This document shows, piece by piece, positions 1 to 5,685 of a stretch of 5,685 bases of DNA. Position 1 is the stretch's first letter. The number at the start of each line of letters is the position of its first letter. The position numbers and the translations under genes are program-made. This stretch comes from Candidatus Mcinerneyibacteriota bacterium (GTDB lineage: Bacteria; AUK180; JAQVHJ01): the NCBI GenBank assembly GCA_030630935.1, contig DAOVMD010000227.1, positions 1-5,685 on the forward strand. The letters are read 5' to 3'. The notes below the pieces were generated by a model. That model was given only the letters and a program-made list of their open reading frames with translations, had not been told where the DNA came from and searched no databases.

Positions 1-1497
1 ATACGCAATTACATTCACATAAATACTATCATAATCTGCATTGAAACTAAATTGTCTTGAATCACCATCTACTCTCTCATCGATGAATGCATTTTTAAAT
101 TGAGCAGAAGTTGAGATTGGAAAAGTTGAAGCTAAAAGTCTGTATTGGATTGCTGCCCCGAAATAATCTCCGTCATCATAAGCCCTCTCCCATGAAACCT
201 TAATATCGCCAAGTTTATTTAATAATTCCGCTTTAAAATTAACTGCGGCAGGTGATTCGAAATCTGCTTTTACCAAAGTTGCGGGGTAAGCAAAATTGGG
301 AATAGTAAACGCTTCAGTTGAGATATAGAAATTCCTATCCTGTGGTCGAAAAACGATCTCTGTACCGTGATATGGGAGATATCCCTGAGTAAAATCAATA
401 ATTCGATAACAAAATTCAATCTCATCTGTTACAGGATTATATTTAAAAACATTCCCATCTTTAATTTTAGAAGTAGCCTGGATAAAAAATCCTGTTGTAC
501 ATCCATAGATACAACCATCATCACCAAACGTTAAACCCGAAATGGAAACAGAAGAAAAATTAGTATCGACCTTTCCAACCACATGGAACGTGGATTGAAG
601 AATGTCATAATAGAAAAAATATCCACCTCTATTATGAGAATAATTCAAAGTTCCACCATAAACTCTTTCATTCGCTTCATCATATAATAATGCACTTATC
701 CCCACTGTATCATTAGCAAAAAAAGTAGTACCGAGGTCTTCAAATGTTTTTCCGATGGGATTAAACCTATATAATTTCGCATCGGGAGAGGATCCGCAAT
801 AAATATTCCCGTCCTTATCAGGGGCTAATGCGATAAATCTTTCGGTAGTTGGATAGATTGAGGAGATATCAACTGAATATGTAACTGTTGAAGTTATCAG
901 ATCATATTCAGAAAAGTACTCGTTTGGTAGAATTGACAATGGATAAGTGCCCGAAGTCGAGACATAGAATAATGAACCTTGATTCGAGCCTCTTGGTTTA
1001 TCAGAGCAAATTGCTTCAACAACTGTTTCTTCAGGTTCAGGTGCTCCGAGAATAATTGGAGCTGTGGGGGTTTCATTATAAAGTTCCGAACTAATTGCAG
1101 TTGTAACTAAACATGAATAAGAATTAGGTTGATCTGACAATAAACCCATAAGAATTAAATCATCAGAATTATATTTTTTCATAACGATTCGATTAATCCA
1201 TTTATAAGAATCATGAACTGACTCTCGAAAGGAATATACTCTCCTTGGATTATTATTTATTGAAGTGCCTTGATTAATTGGAAGGTCAGGGTTATAATAA
1301 AATAGAATACTTACCCCCCCGTGAACACTCATGCTTCCGGTTCCGCCTATAATCATTCCATCTTTAGTTATTTCAAGATCCTTTAGGGAAAATTGATTAA
1401 AGAATAATTGTTCTTCCTGGTATCCTAACAAGTAGAAATTTGCTGAGACATTAAGAGTAAGTAAGCCTAAAAAAATCAGGAGCAATAACTTTTTCAT
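1..1497 (-). CDS. Secreted beta-propeller/Fn3 protein, paralogue A (C-terminal part beyond window)
   Basis: I read this frame codon by codon from the ATG at 1497-1495 to the window edge and found no stop or frameshift, giving 499 residues of a protein that is about 621 long in its neighbour. The first 19 residues are a signal peptide (MKK, a Leu/Ile/Phe core, then NVSA before NF), identical to copy B. Propeller-like repeats follow, each with a buried strand, an Asp/Gly turn, an IYxGS- or VYGGT-like strand and a closing FxYD or LYRFNP strand. A fibronectin-III-like segment starts near residue 415 (SPAAVNF, then IKVSW and AYDDGDYFG). The sorting domain expected after residue 522 lies outside the window. 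A weak GGTGA sits 4 bases before the ATG. Compared with B and C, most of the private changes are in blades 5 and 6 (LNYSHNRGGYF, DTNFSS, GFFIQATSKIKDG), and a run of seven G encodes part of HGGV near residue 60. Function is unknown; export is inferred from the family. Confidence 0.9.
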   Translation of the reverse strand, partial: MKKLLLLIFLGLLTLNVSANFYLLGYQEEQLFFNQFSLKDLEITKDGMIIGGTGSMSVHGGVSILFYYNPDLPINQGTSINNNPRRVYSFRESVHDSYKWINRIVMKKYNSDDLILMGLLSDQPNSYSCLVTTAISSELYNETPTAPIILGAPEPEETVVEAICSDKPRGSNQGSLFYVSTSGTYPLSILPNEYFSEYDLITSTVTYSVDISSIYPTTERFIALAPDKDGNIYCGSSPDAKLYRFNPIGKTFEDLGTTFFANDTVGISALLYDEANERVYGGTLNYSHNRGGYFFYYDILQSTFHVVGKVDTNFSSVSISGLTFGDDGCIYGCTTGFFIQATSKIKDGNVFKYNPVTDEIEFCYRIIDFTQGYLPYHGTEIVFRPQDRNFYISTEAFTIPNFAYPATLVKADFESPAAVNFKAELLNKLGDIKVSWERAYDDGDYFGAAIQYRLLASTFPISTSAQFKNAFIDERVDGDSRQFSFNADYDSIYVNVIAY

Positions 1498-1536
1498 AAT
1501 TTCACCAAATTATATTTTTTTAAATCCAATATTCAA
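1494..1536 (-). pseudogene. Relic of the DUF362 3' end in front of copy A (frame broken by +1)
   Basis: These 43 bases align with the last 14 codons of the DUF362 gene at 5463-5504, with conserved blocks TTGAATATTGGAT and TATAATTTGGTGAAAT. An A7 run adds one base relative to the relic before B, so the reading frame is lost. The final TGA overlaps the ATG of copy A. It also contributes the GGTGA that probably serves as ribosome binding site. Confidence 0.75.
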
Positions 1537-1542
1537 TTATCA

Positions 1543-1558
1543 AGGGAGCAAGCTCCCT
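1543..1558. repeat. Hairpin 1 of spacer A/B (7-bp stem)
   Basis: AGGGAGC, AA, GCTCCCT is a perfect inverted repeat. In the transcript it is the third hairpin after the stop of copy B. No run of U follows on the transcribed strand (TGATAATTG), so it does not look like an intrinsic terminator. The identical sequence occurs at 3522-3537. Confidence 0.8.
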
Positions 1559-1566
1559 CTAACAAT

Positions 1567-1581
1567 GGGTCTTTAAGACCC
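1567..1581. repeat. Hairpin 2 of spacer A/B (7-bp stem)
   Basis: GGGTCTT and AAGACCC flank a single T, forming a 15-base palindrome. The equivalent at 3546-3556 is shorter on both arms but still pairs. Confidence 0.75.
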
Positions 1582-1589
1582 CAATTATA

Positions 1590-1604
1590 AATGCGAAACG
1601 CATT
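1590..1604. repeat. Hairpin 3 of spacer A/B (6-bp stem)
   Basis: AATGCG, loop AAA, CGCATT. It lies nearest to the stop codon of copy B, so it is the first hairpin transcribed. The equivalent at 3567-3577 has a different loop and paired edge. Confidence 0.75.
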
Positions 1605-1611
1605 GAAGTTT

Positions 1612-3477
1612 TTATTTTGTAATAGATAATTTTCCTTTAAATTTATTTCCATTTATATCTTCCATGTAGTAAATATAAGTTCCTGAGGATATTAAATTTC
1701 CCTTTTTATTATTTAGATCCCAAATAAAACCGTTTTGAGTAACTCCCGGTTCAACTTGAGATTCTATCCCGATTTTTTCAAGGGAACTCAAGTCTGCAAC
1801 CAATTCCCCTGCGATTGTATAGATATTAAATACTTTTAATTTAGACGGTAAATTCACAAATTTTATTCCGCCCGAATGCTCACCATATTTATATGGATTA
1901 GGAAAGATAACGGGTGAAGTTTCCAGATTAAAAATCACACGCGTTGGAATATTATATGGAGAAGGATTATAAACATCATCATACGCAATTACATTCACAT
2001 AAATACTATCATAATCTGCATTGAAACTAAATTGTCTTGAATCACCATCTACTCTCTCATCGATGAATGCATTTTTAAATTGAGCAGAAATTGAGATTGG
2101 AAAAGTTGAAGCTAAAATTCTATATTGAATTGCAGACCCAAAATAATTTCCGTCATCATAAGCCCTCTTCCATGAAACCTTAATATCACCAAGTTTATTT
2201 AATAATTCTGCTTTAAAATTAACTGCGGCAGGTGATTCGAAATCTGCTTTTACCAAGGTCCCGGGGTAAATAAAACCTGGAATATTGAAAGCTTCGGTTG
2301 AGACATAGAAATTTCTGTCCTGGGGTCTAAAAACGATCTCTGTGCCGTTATATGGGAGATATGCCTGAGTAACATCAACAATTGGATAACAGAATTCAAT
2401 CTCATCTGTTATAGGATCATATTTAAAAACATTCCCTTCTTTAATATCAGAAGTTGCCATGATAATCAATCCTGTTGTGCATCCATAGACACAGCCATCA
2501 TCACCAAACGTTAAGCCCGAAATGGAAACAGAAGAAGAATCAGTATCAACCTTTCCAACTACATGGAATGTGGATTGGAGTATATCATAATAGAAAAGAT
2601 ATCCGCCTCTATACTGAGACAGATTCATAGTTCCACCATAAACTCTTTGATTTGTTTCATCATATAATAATGCACTTATACCAACTGTATCAGCAGCAAA
2701 GAAAGTAGTACCGAGGTCTTCAAATGTTTTGCCACTGGGGTCAAACTTATATAACTTCGCATCCGGCAAGGAACCGCAATAAATATTCCCGTCCTTATCC
2801 GGTGCTAATGCAATAAATCTATCGGTACTTGGAAAGATTGAAGATATATCAACTGAATATGTAACTGTTGAAGTTATTAAATCGTATTCAGAAAAATAAC
2901 CGTTTGGGGGGTTGGAATTTGGATATGACCCCGAAGTCGAAACATAAAACTTTGAGCCTTGAGCTGAGCCTCTTGGTTTATCAGAGCAAATAGCTTCAAC
3001 AACAGTTTCATCGTGCTCAGGTGCTCCGAGAATAATTGGAGCTGTGGGCGTTTCATTATAAAGTTCTGAACTAATTGCGGTTGTAACTAAACATGAATAT
3101 GAATTGGGTTGATTTGATAATAAACCCATGAGAATTAAATCATCAGAACTATAATTTTTCATCACTATTCGATTTATCCATTTATATGAATCATGAACTG
3201 ATTCTTGAAAGGAATATACTCTTCTTGGATTATTATTAATTGAAATTCCTTCATTAATTGGAAGGTCCGGGTTATAATAGAATAAAATACTAATCCCGTC
3301 GTTAACACTCATGCTTCCGGTTCCACCGATAATTATTCCGTCATCAGTGATTTCCAGATCCTTAATGGAAAATTGATTAAAAAATAATTGTTCTTCCTGG
3401 TATCCTAACAAGTAGAAATTTGCGGAAACATTAAGAGTAAGTAAGCCTAAAAAAATCAGGAGCAATAACTTTTTCAT
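1612..3477 (-). CDS. Secreted seven-repeat beta-propeller/Fn3 protein with T9SS-type sorting domain, paralogue B
   Basis: This is the complete 621-residue middle copy. Residues 1-19 are a signal peptide with a VSA cleavage site; there is no lipobox Cys. Seven propeller-like repeats start near residues 38, 101, 160, 221, 267, 319 and 379. The clearest are FIALAPDKDGNIYCGS, GISALLYDETNQRVYGGT and GLTFGDDGCVYG, with closing strands KLYKFDP, GYLFYYD and NVFKYDP. Residues 415-517 look like a fibronectin-III domain (IKVSW, AYDDG, IYVNVIAYDD). Residues 522-621 match the Por/FlgD-like C-terminal sorting domain: FPNPYKYG, FNIYTIAGELV, FIWDLNN, SSGTYIYY and a final KGKLSITK. By family knowledge this domain directs export through the type IX system with surface attachment or release. 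No catalytic residues are recognisable, so a binding or structural role is only a guess. It is about 90% identical by eye to C. The ATG overlaps a TGA ending a relic of the DUF362 gene (ATGA), with GGTGA 4 bases upstream. Confidence 0.95.
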   Translation of the reverse strand: MKKLLLLIFLGLLTLNVSANFYLLGYQEEQLFFNQFSIKDLEITDDGIIIGGTGSMSVNDGISILFYYNPDLPINEGISINNNPRRVYSFQESVHDSYKWINRIVMKNYSSDDLILMGLLSNQPNSYSCLVTTAISSELYNETPTAPIILGAPEHDETVVEAICSDKPRGSAQGSKFYVSTSGSYPNSNPPNGYFSEYDLITSTVTYSVDISSIFPSTDRFIALAPDKDGNIYCGSLPDAKLYKFDPSGKTFEDLGTTFFAADTVGISALLYDETNQRVYGGTMNLSQYRGGYLFYYDILQSTFHVVGKVDTDSSSVSISGLTFGDDGCVYGCTTGLIIMATSDIKEGNVFKYDPITDEIEFCYPIVDVTQAYLPYNGTEIVFRPQDRNFYVSTEAFNIPGFIYPGTLVKADFESPAAVNFKAELLNKLGDIKVSWKRAYDDGNYFGSAIQYRILASTFPISISAQFKNAFIDERVDGDSRQFSFNADYDSIYVNVIAYDDVYNPSPYNIPTRVIFNLETSPVIFPNPYKYGEHSGGIKFVNLPSKLKVFNIYTIAGELVADLSSLEKIGIESQVEPGVTQNGFIWDLNNKKGNLISSGTYIYYMEDINGNKFKGKLSITK

Positions 3478-3515
3478 AATTTCACCAAATTATATTTTTG
3501 AAATCCAATATTCAA
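3474..3515 (-). pseudogene. In-frame relic of the DUF362 3' end in front of copy B
   Basis: Read in the DUF362 frame these 42 bases give LNIGFQKYNLVKL and a stop; the intact gene ends LNIGSIKYNLVKS and a stop, so 10 of 13 residues match. The two codons just before the relic are stops (TGA TAA), so it is not translated from further upstream. The TGA overlaps the ATG of copy B as ATGA. The relic also carries the GGTGA located 4 bases before the start. Confidence 0.8.
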
Positions 3516-3521
3516 TTATCA

Positions 3522-3537
3522 AGGGAGCAAGCTCCCT
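3522..3537. repeat. Hairpin 1 of spacer B/C (7-bp stem)
   Basis: AGGGAGC, AA, GCTCCCT, identical to 1543-1558. It borders the DUF362 relic ahead of copy B and is not followed by a U tract on the transcribed strand. Confidence 0.8.
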
Positions 3538-3545
3538 CTAACAAT

Positions 3546-3556
3546 GGGTTTGACCC
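3546..3556. repeat. Hairpin 2 of spacer B/C (shortened)
   Basis: GGGT, loop TTG, ACCC. Relative to 1567-1581 four bases are missing between the same outer arms, yet a stem remains. The flanking bases (CAAT before, CCAATTATAAATGCG after) are unchanged. Confidence 0.65.
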
Positions 3557-3566
3557 CAATTATAAA

Positions 3567-3577
3567 TGCGCAGCGCA
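3567..3577. repeat. Hairpin 3 of spacer B/C
   Basis: TGCGC, A, GCGCA (or TGCG with loop CAG). The core TGCG/CGCA stem is shared with 1590-1604, while the loop changed from AAA to CAG and the outer A-T pairs are partly lost. Confidence 0.65.
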
Positions 3578-3586
3578 GTAAAACTT

Positions 3587-5449
3587 TTATTTAATAACGG
3601 ATAATTTTCCTTTAAATTTATTTCCGTTTATATCTTCCATATAGTAAATATAAGTTCCAGAGGATATTAGATTTCCATTTCTATTATTTAAATCCCAAAT
3701 GAAACCATTTTGAGTAACCCCCGGTTCAACTTGTGATTCAATCCCTGTTCCTTCCAGGATATTCAAATCTGCAACCAATTCCCCTGCGATGGTATAGATA
3801 TTAAATACCTTCAATTTTGATGGTACGTTCACAAATTTTACCCCGCCGGAATGCTCACCATACTTATATGGATTAGGAAAGATAACGGGCGAAGTTTCAG
3901 GATTAAAAATCACACGAGTTGGAATATTATATGGAGAAGGATTATAAACATCATCATATGCAATTACATTCACATAAATACTATCATAAGTAGCATTGAA
4001 ACTAAACTGTCTTAAATCACCATCTACTCTCTCATCGAGGAATGCGTTTTTAAATTGAGCAGAAGTTGAGATTGGGAAAGTTGAAGCTAAAATTCTATAT
4101 TGGATTGCAGAACCGAAATAATCCCCGTCATCATAAGCTCTCTCCCAGGAAACTTTAATATCGCCAAATTTATTTAATAACTCTGCCTTAAAGCTAAATG
4201 CATCAGGTGATTCAAAATCCGCTTTTAACAGAGTTGCGGGGTATCCAGGGGAAATATTGAATGCTTCAGTTGAGACATAGAAATTTCTATCCTGCGGGCG
4301 AAAAACGATCTCTGTCCCGTGATATGGGAGATATGCCTGTTCGGTATCAATAATTGGATAACAAAATTCAATCTCATCTGTTACAGGATTATATTTAAAA
4401 ACATTTCCTTCTTTAATATCAGAAGTAGCCATGATAATTATTCCTGTTGTACATCCATAAATACAGCCATCATCACCAAAGGTTAAACCTGAAATTGAAA
4501 CAGAAGAAGAATCAGTATCAACCTTTCCAACTACATGGAATGTGGATTGGAGTATGTCATAATAGAAAAGATATCCACCTCTATATTGAGACATATTCAT
4601 TGTTCCACCATAGACTCTTTCATTTGCTTCATCATATAATAATGCACTTATCCCAATTGTATCATTAGCAAAAAATGTAGTACCGAGGTCTTCGAATGTT
4701 TTAGCAGTGGGATTAAATCTATATAATTTTACATCGGGAACTGAACCGCAATAAATATTCCCATCCTTATCCGGAGCCAATGCAATAAATCTGTCTGTAG
4801 TTGGATAGATTGAGGAGATATCGACGGAATATGTAACTGTTGAAGTTAATAAATCATATTCAGAAAAGTAACCATTTGGCGGATTGGAAATTGGATATGA
4901 TCCCGAAGTCGAGACATAGAATTTTGAGCCTTGAATTGAGCCTCTCGGTTTATCAGAGCAAATTGCTTCAACAACTGTTTCTTCAGGTTCAGGTGCTCCG
5001 AGAATAATTGGAGCTGTGGGGGTTTCATTATAAAGTTCCGAACTAATTGAAGTTGTAACTAAACATGAATATGAATTAGGTTGATTTGATAATAATCCCA
5101 TAAGAATCAAATCATCAGAATTATAATTTTTCATCACGATTCGACTAATCCATTTATATGAATCATGAACTGATTCTTGAAAGGAATATACTCTCCTTGG
5201 ATTATTACTAATTGAAATCCCTTGATTAATTGGAAGGTCCGGGTTGTAATAGAATAAAATACTTATTCCGCCGTCAACACTCATGCTCCCGGTTCCACCG
5301 ATAATTATTCCGCCATCTGTTATTTCCAAATCCTTTATGGAAAATCTATTAAAGAATAATTGTTTTTCTTGATACCCTAACAAGTAGAAATTTGTAGAGA
5401 CATTAACAGTAAATAAACCGAAAAAAATCAGTAGGAGTACCTTTTTCAT
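3587..5449 (-). CDS. Secreted seven-repeat beta-propeller/Fn3 protein with T9SS-type sorting domain, paralogue C (first in the array)
   Basis: This complete 620-residue copy is the first transcribed, directly behind the DUF362 gene with a 13-base gap that holds its ribosome binding site, so the two are very probably one operon. The architecture is as in B: signal peptide, seven propeller-like repeats (for example FIALAPDKDGNIYCGS and GLTFGDDGCIYG), an Fn3-like segment from about residue 415, and a terminal domain with FPNPYKYG, IYTIAGELV, SSGTYIYY and KGKLSVIK. It is one residue shorter than B because of a deletion in the blade-7 loop (AFNISPGYPATL against AFNIPGFIYPGTL). The signal peptide is the most diverged of the three and ends NVST rather than NVSA, which leaves a Thr at the expected -1 position; cleavage may be shifted or slower. 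The start at 5449 is preferred because GAGG lies 7 bases upstream and the signal peptide starts there; the ATG at 5466 opens only a six-codon frame. The ligand is unknown. Confidence 0.95.
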   Translation of the reverse strand: MKKVLLLIFFGLFTVNVSTNFYLLGYQEKQLFFNRFSIKDLEITDGGIIIGGTGSMSVDGGISILFYYNPDLPINQGISISNNPRRVYSFQESVHDSYKWISRIVMKNYNSDDLILMGLLSNQPNSYSCLVTTSISSELYNETPTAPIILGAPEPEETVVEAICSDKPRGSIQGSKFYVSTSGSYPISNPPNGYFSEYDLLTSTVTYSVDISSIYPTTDRFIALAPDKDGNIYCGSVPDVKLYRFNPTAKTFEDLGTTFFANDTIGISALLYDEANERVYGGTMNMSQYRGGYLFYYDILQSTFHVVGKVDTDSSSVSISGLTFGDDGCIYGCTTGIIIMATSDIKEGNVFKYNPVTDEIEFCYPIIDTEQAYLPYHGTEIVFRPQDRNFYVSTEAFNISPGYPATLLKADFESPDAFSFKAELLNKFGDIKVSWERAYDDGDYFGSAIQYRILASTFPISTSAQFKNAFLDERVDGDLRQFSFNATYDSIYVNVIAYDDVYNPSPYNIPTRVIFNPETSPVIFPNPYKYGEHSGGVKFVNVPSKLKVFNIYTIAGELVADLNILEGTGIESQVEPGVTQNGFIWDLNNRNGNLISSGTYIYYMEDINGNKFKGKLSVIK

Positions 5450-5466
5450 AATTTTACCTCTTTCAT
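5446..5466 (-). other. Six-codon upstream frame overlapping the starts on both sides
   Basis: ATG AAA GAG GTA AAA TTA TGA (peptide MKEVKL) begins at the ATG overlapping the DUF362 stop and ends with a TGA that overlaps the ATG of copy C. It is a by-product of the 17-bp duplication, whose length is not a multiple of three. It might pass ribosomes from the DUF362 gene to copy C, but nothing proves that it is translated. Confidence 0.35.
5457..5460 (-). promoter_or_regulatory. Ribosome binding site of copy C (GAGG)
   Basis: GAGG lies 7 bases before the ATG at 5449 and decides this start over the ATG at 5466. It was created at the junction of the 17-bp duplication (GA of unit one plus GG of unit two) and is a better Shine-Dalgarno match than the GGTGA before A and B. 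Confidence 0.65.
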
Positions 5467-5685
5467 GATTTTACCAAATTATATTTTATTGATCCGATAT
5501 TTAATTCAGCTGCATAATTAAATTGTTCATTATAATCAATTTTGGGATGGACAATTTTAAACTTCTCAGATGAGGGTCCGGCAGATCCTACTTGGCTATC
5601 CGGAATTCCAGCTGCAGAATTCACAAGATCCAAAGATGCCTTATCAATCGCAATAGGATCGAACGATGCACAGATTCCAATATCA
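5463..5685 (-). CDS. DUF362-family protein, C-terminal 73 residues (5' part beyond window)
   Basis: A frame open from the window edge ends at TGA 5465-5463. Its start, DIGICASFDPIAIDKASLDL followed by VN, is the conserved C-terminal motif of DUF362 proteins, and the end (KFKIVHPKIDYNEQFNYAAE, then LNIGSIKYNLVKS) fits the usual close of that family, where an Asp-aromatic stretch precedes an AEE-G-GS-YEL-like tail. Many full-length members are roughly 300-400 residues and carry 4Fe-4S ferredoxin-type Cys clusters further upstream; those would lie outside the window and cannot be confirmed. The biochemical role of the family is unresolved, so I assign none. The gene runs into copy C with 13 bases between stop and ATG. 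Its last 14 codons, including the stop, are echoed in front of copies A and B, which identifies it as the ancestral upstream neighbour of the array. Confidence 0.85.
   Translation of the reverse strand, partial: DIGICASFDPIAIDKASLDLVNSAAGIPDSQVGSAGPSSEKFKIVHPKIDYNEQFNYAAELNIGSIKYNLVKS

Follow-up and report, generated by a model that had tools for sequence, protein, structure and literature searches.

Three head-to-tail copies of one gene, lying behind a gene of the DUF362 type, very probably arose through a tandem duplication that joined a dispersed palindromic repeat to the tail of the DUF362 gene, with later exchange between the copies. The 3' end of the DUF362 gene, which stands upstream of the first copy, is also found in front of the internal copies of the array. 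As the mark of a process that is well known, it is clear but ordinary, and the instructive detail is the position of the join inside a dispersed repeat.

The window, i.e., the whole stretch of DNA that was analyzed, is an entire contig of 5685 bp. The assembly to which it belongs is fragmented, with 471 contigs that add up to 3.16 Mb, and is 80% complete. Every gene on the contig is on the minus strand, in the order DUF362-type tail, copy C, copy B, and copy A (Table 1), and the three copies are direct repeats with a regular spacing (1980 and 1972-1989). At the contig end, copies A and B agree without a difference over exactly 109 bases (window 1-109 versus 1981-2089), and given that the contig stops inside copy A within this identity, the array may exceed the assembled copies.

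Table 1. Position of the genes, relics, spacers and repeats in the window.
Feature	Position	Strand	Remarks
DUF362-type gene, 3' end	5463..5685	-	73 codons, truncated by the contig end
DUF362-type gene, final codons	5504-5466 (final 13 codons); 5465-5463 (stop TGA)	-	
Copy C	3587..5449	-	ORF; 620 aa, complete
Copy B	1612..3477	-	ORF; 621 aa, complete; 90% aa identity to C
Copy A	1..1497	-	ORF; 499 codons, truncated by the contig end
Relic before copy B, DUF362-derived part	3474..3511	-	~38 nt; old stop TGA overlaps the ATG of B
Relic before copy A	1494..1533	-	One additional A; junction as in B
Spacer between C and B	3519..3586	-	Palindromic modules GGGAGCTTGCTCCC, GGGGTC..GACCC-like, and TGCGC..GCGCA, of the dispersed repeat family
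Spacer between B and A	1534..1611	-	Repeat modules and junction as in the C-B spacer
Junction TAATTGA	3512..3518	-	Repeat-derived; AATT shared with the DUF362 tail; from switch-point likelihood
17-nt imperfect tandem repeat (GGTAAAATCATGAAAGA / GGTAAAATTATGAAAAA)	5442..5475	-	Covers the stop of DUF362 and the C start codon

The DUF362 relic and the history of the copies

The stretch that precedes copy B (3515-3474, minus strand) reads TTGAATATTGGATTTCAAAAATATAATTTGGTGAAATTATGA, which is translated as LNIGFQKYNLVKL followed by a stop, and the tail of the DUF362 gene (5504-5463, minus strand) reads TTAAATATCGGATCAATAAAATATAATTTGGTAAAATCATGA, translated as LNIGSIKYNLVKS and also closed by a stop. 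The two agree at 34 of 42 nucleotides and, in the same frame, at 10 of 13 residues, with the in-frame stops TGA TAA directly before the relic of B. The resemblance exceeds the backgrounds that were compared, given that none of the 257,350 six-frame 13-mers from 131 kb of this genome matched the tail peptide at more than 6/13, that the maximum for DNA against the 42-nt stretch was 27/42, and that 200,000 shuffles of the relic gave at most 6 of the 13 residues. The core 19-mer of the stretch (AAATATAATTTGGTNAAAT) has three exact occurrences in the 3.16 Mb assembly, all of them at this locus, and its inexact matches are not commoner than those of a reversed-pattern control.

The relic before copy A (1536-1494) has 43 nt, its A run being longer by one A, which breaks the frame. 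Both observations had been made in the preliminary description from the letters of the window, and both were borne out, the match before B by the comparison with these backgrounds and the additional base before A by the alignment of the three stretches. The stretch copies the 3' end of DUF362 in truncated form, so the duplicated unit began inside the DUF362 gene, and it is copy C that has kept the upstream junction in its ancestral state.

The history of the gene bodies is a different one. The synonymous divergence (dS) is 0.45 between B and C, 0.38 between A and C, and 0.35 between A and B, with dN/dS values of 0.12-0.19 among the copies, which points to genes that are about equally old and have all been subject to purifying selection. 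The sites at which one copy differs from the other two are clustered along the genes (129 runs, where 160 are expected, a value reached in 0 of 5000 shuffles), which is the pattern that exchange between copies would leave. The bodies of A, B, and C are thus roughly equidistant mosaics, and the earlier proposal that C holds the ancestral position, with A and B derived, is valid for the upstream junction and the leader, but not for the genes.

The leaders of A and B differ by one mismatch and one gap in 73 columns. Similarly, only 2 of 78 positions differ between A and B in the first codons, against 164 of 1310 (about 12%) in the rest of the gene, and the most alike 130-column window of the two copies overlaps the leader (permutation p 0.006). 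Given leaders this close above bodies that have diverged by some 12%, the relics of A and B are not independent witnesses, and the one before A cannot be counted as a second testimony to the duplication. The low divergence between the A and B leaders could be due to gene conversion, to unequal crossover, or to selection acting on the leader.

This leads to the possible, though rather unlikely, alternative that the stretch is derived from DUF362 and reached both A and B through gene conversion of the leader, rather than through two rounds of duplication, in which case A (or B) may first have had another leader. The contrast between leaders and bodies, together with the clustering of the odd sites, speaks for such conversion, but at least one copy needed the truncated tail at a new junction, for which tandem duplication is the simplest source, and the switch from repeat to tail at the join is left unexplained. 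Conversion of the leader therefore modifies the reading by tandem duplication, and does not replace it.

The join within a dispersed palindromic repeat

The spacer between C and B has matches at about forty sites across the genome, of which many are short and weak. The hairpin GGGAGCTTGCTCCCTTNNTAATT, which includes TAATT, has 21 matches in the genome and none in the control, and the module TAATTGATAAACCGATTT has 66 matches against five in the control, while being essentially absent from six relatives. At the DNA level, the region 3474-3586 folds with a z of -2.7. The intergenic palindromic modules (GGGAGCTTGCTCCC, TAATTGATAAACCGATTT, and those of the CAGTTTGGAACGTG and GATTGCCGCAG types) make up a large mosaic family, in many combinations, found at window 3519-3586 and 1534-1611 and throughout the genome.

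At other sites, the hairpin often precedes a run such as TTGATAATTGATAAACCGATTT; here, it precedes TTGATAATTGAATATTGGATTT. The 18 nt at the junction fit the consensus of the repeat no better and no worse than the tail of DUF362 (13/18 in each case), which leaves the distal third of the relic ambiguous and was a real threat to the finding of a relic. When a repeat profile and the DUF362 tail were compared column by column, a switch after TAATTG or TAATTGA received posteriors of 0.40 and 0.44, together 0.83, and a repeat sequence running through the distal relic was rejected as ~150 times less likely than a switch, all of these figures being approximate, as the matches had been compiled into the profile manually.

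Following a switch at this point, the repeat, and not DUF362, is the best source for the initial TTG codon and for the pair of stops that precedes it. The part derived from DUF362 is thus ~38 nt long (3511-3474), rather than 42. The suggestion that the duplicated unit began inside the DUF362 gene about 42 bases before its stop stands as to the gene, of which a truncated 3' end was copied, and is to be corrected as to the length.

The join accordingly combines a short sequence shared by both partners with one side that lies in a dispersed palindromic repeat, and the AATT common to the two probably marks a microhomology join. The ancestral locus would have held a DUF362-type gene followed by a single copy of the array gene, a state that we infer, given that no single copy behind DUF362 was found in the genomes searched, in which the sole relative is partial. 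A tandem duplication would then have joined a dispersed repeat downstream of the array gene to a point that lies ~38 nt ahead of the stop of DUF362, with the shared AATT as the probable means, so that the new copy would carry the repeat and the DUF362 tail before its ATG. The third copy would have come from later exchange between copies, by unequal crossover and then gene conversion, which would also have kept the leaders of A and B nearly identical. As the contig ends inside A, the sequence past the last copy is missing and the other breakpoint lies out of sight.

It is unlikely, on the other hand, that the duplication came first and left a longer DUF362 remnant, into which the repeat was then inserted, which would make the present edge an insertion scar and not the breakpoint of the duplication. 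The abundance and the mosaic nature of the repeat family are favorable to such an insertion, but the module goes on as TAAACCGATTT elsewhere and is cut here at TAATTGA, where the DUF362 sequence starts, and the far side of the repeat holds no DUF362 sequence.

Coding origin of the stretch

The 73-residue tail of the DUF362 gene matches the ends of DUF362-type proteins in 16 other genomes, most of which finish in a motif such as GLGTREYELI. In the only genome of the same family that was compared (G001), the DUF362 protein is full-length (Pfam PF04015, 4.6e-38) and has the C-terminal end AAELKMGNIKYKLV (longer, AAELKMGNIKYKLVDIDKD). No relative of the array gene follows it in the next reading frames. 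The remnant is therefore native to the neighboring gene, which carries it even where there is no array gene, and the stretch began as DUF362 coding sequence rather than as a leader. Among the eight differences between the relic of B and the intact tail before C, codon 6 could be polarized with G001, most of the other sites staying undecided; in the IKY segment, the I is common to G001 and the intact tail, with Q in B, which places the change on the relic side.

The reverse course, in which the stretch is a conserved leader (a ribosome-binding region) of the array genes that came to form the 3' end of the DUF362 gene once the array had settled beside it, is very improbable. It is true that, in A and B, the stretch directly adjoins the start codon and is nearly invariant between the two, and that AAATATAATTTGGT is identical in all three copies, but the tails of DUF362-type genes elsewhere, including the genome of the same family, carry the C-terminal motif with no array gene behind. 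A search of this genome for the pattern that the preliminary description had named as fatal to a duplication, i.e., the same stretch ahead of array-type genes that do not adjoin DUF362, gave no instance, and the stretch itself occurs at no other place in it.

Mere chance, with a distal part that is repeat and a remainder that is coincidence, is barely conceivable, in spite of the equal fit of the 18 nt at the junction, as it is contradicted by the proximal 24 nt of the relic (AAATATAATTTGGTGAAATTATGA), which agree with DUF362 at 22/24 in register, and by a core found nowhere else in the genome.

Known systems, the array gene and the leader of copy C

At the junctions of tandem duplications, a truncated 3' end of the upstream gene travels with each new copy. 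The present case has no essential difference from such remnants of neighboring genes, although it still provides the overlap of a stop with a start, ATGA. The scar polarizes an old gene array of an uncultured lineage using a single contig, and it also carries a caution, given that two near-identical scars need not mean two independent events.

In the amplification of lac in Escherichia coli, microhomology was present at 40/40 sequenced junctions and 22/90 novel junctions lay in REP palindromes (PMC3161906). The array resembles these duplications in being a direct chromosomal duplication with a few bases common to both sides of the join, one of which lies in a dispersed palindromic intergenic repeat (PMC3161906), and the tie between the join and this repeat family provides a natural counterpart of the REP-associated joins of laboratory E. 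coli. By contrast, the events in E. coli were fresh and selected at lac in the laboratory (PMC3161906), whereas the present join is old and natural, with a dS of about 0.35-0.45 in the gene bodies, and belongs to an uncultured lineage, with another repeat family and only one side of the original breakpoint in view. A search of the literature found nothing on this type of locus.

The array gene has only one relative in the 60 genomes, contig scans, plasmids, and viral contigs that were searched, a partial one from the same family whose contig ends inside the gene; the N-terminal half of the array gene has no match in the genome of this relative. No match to Rfam was obtained, and no meaningful relative of the array protein was found among solved structures. 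For the beta-propeller label that the preliminary description had used, the matches of the protein (Reg_prop and SGL) are sub-threshold only, and its structure model (pLDDT 33.5) is unusable.

Copy C has a start that is like a signal peptide and a C-terminal domain that resembles type IX sorting domains. The last ~90 residues of the array protein resemble the C-terminal part of PorZ (type IX secretion; NCBIfam), well below the cut-off, and the genome has ten further sites that match the C-terminal region (window 3590-3890). Together, the ten further matches and the weak likeness to PorZ point to a probable sorting domain of a type IX-like kind.

A more ambitious reading, which is decidedly doubtful, would be that the DUF362 remnant was recruited as the working translation-initiation leader of A and B, through ATGA, and kept uniform by selection or conversion, with the genome-wide palindromic modules acting as recurrent hot spots for the building of gene arrays in this lineage.

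Finally, the 17-nt imperfect tandem repeat at the start of copy C has no counterpart in A and B, in which the stop of DUF362 and the start codon overlap as ATGA. By our own reckoning, its gain in C and its loss in A and B need equal numbers of substitutions. This repeat, which includes a start codon, may give C a translation coupling that differs from that of A and B.
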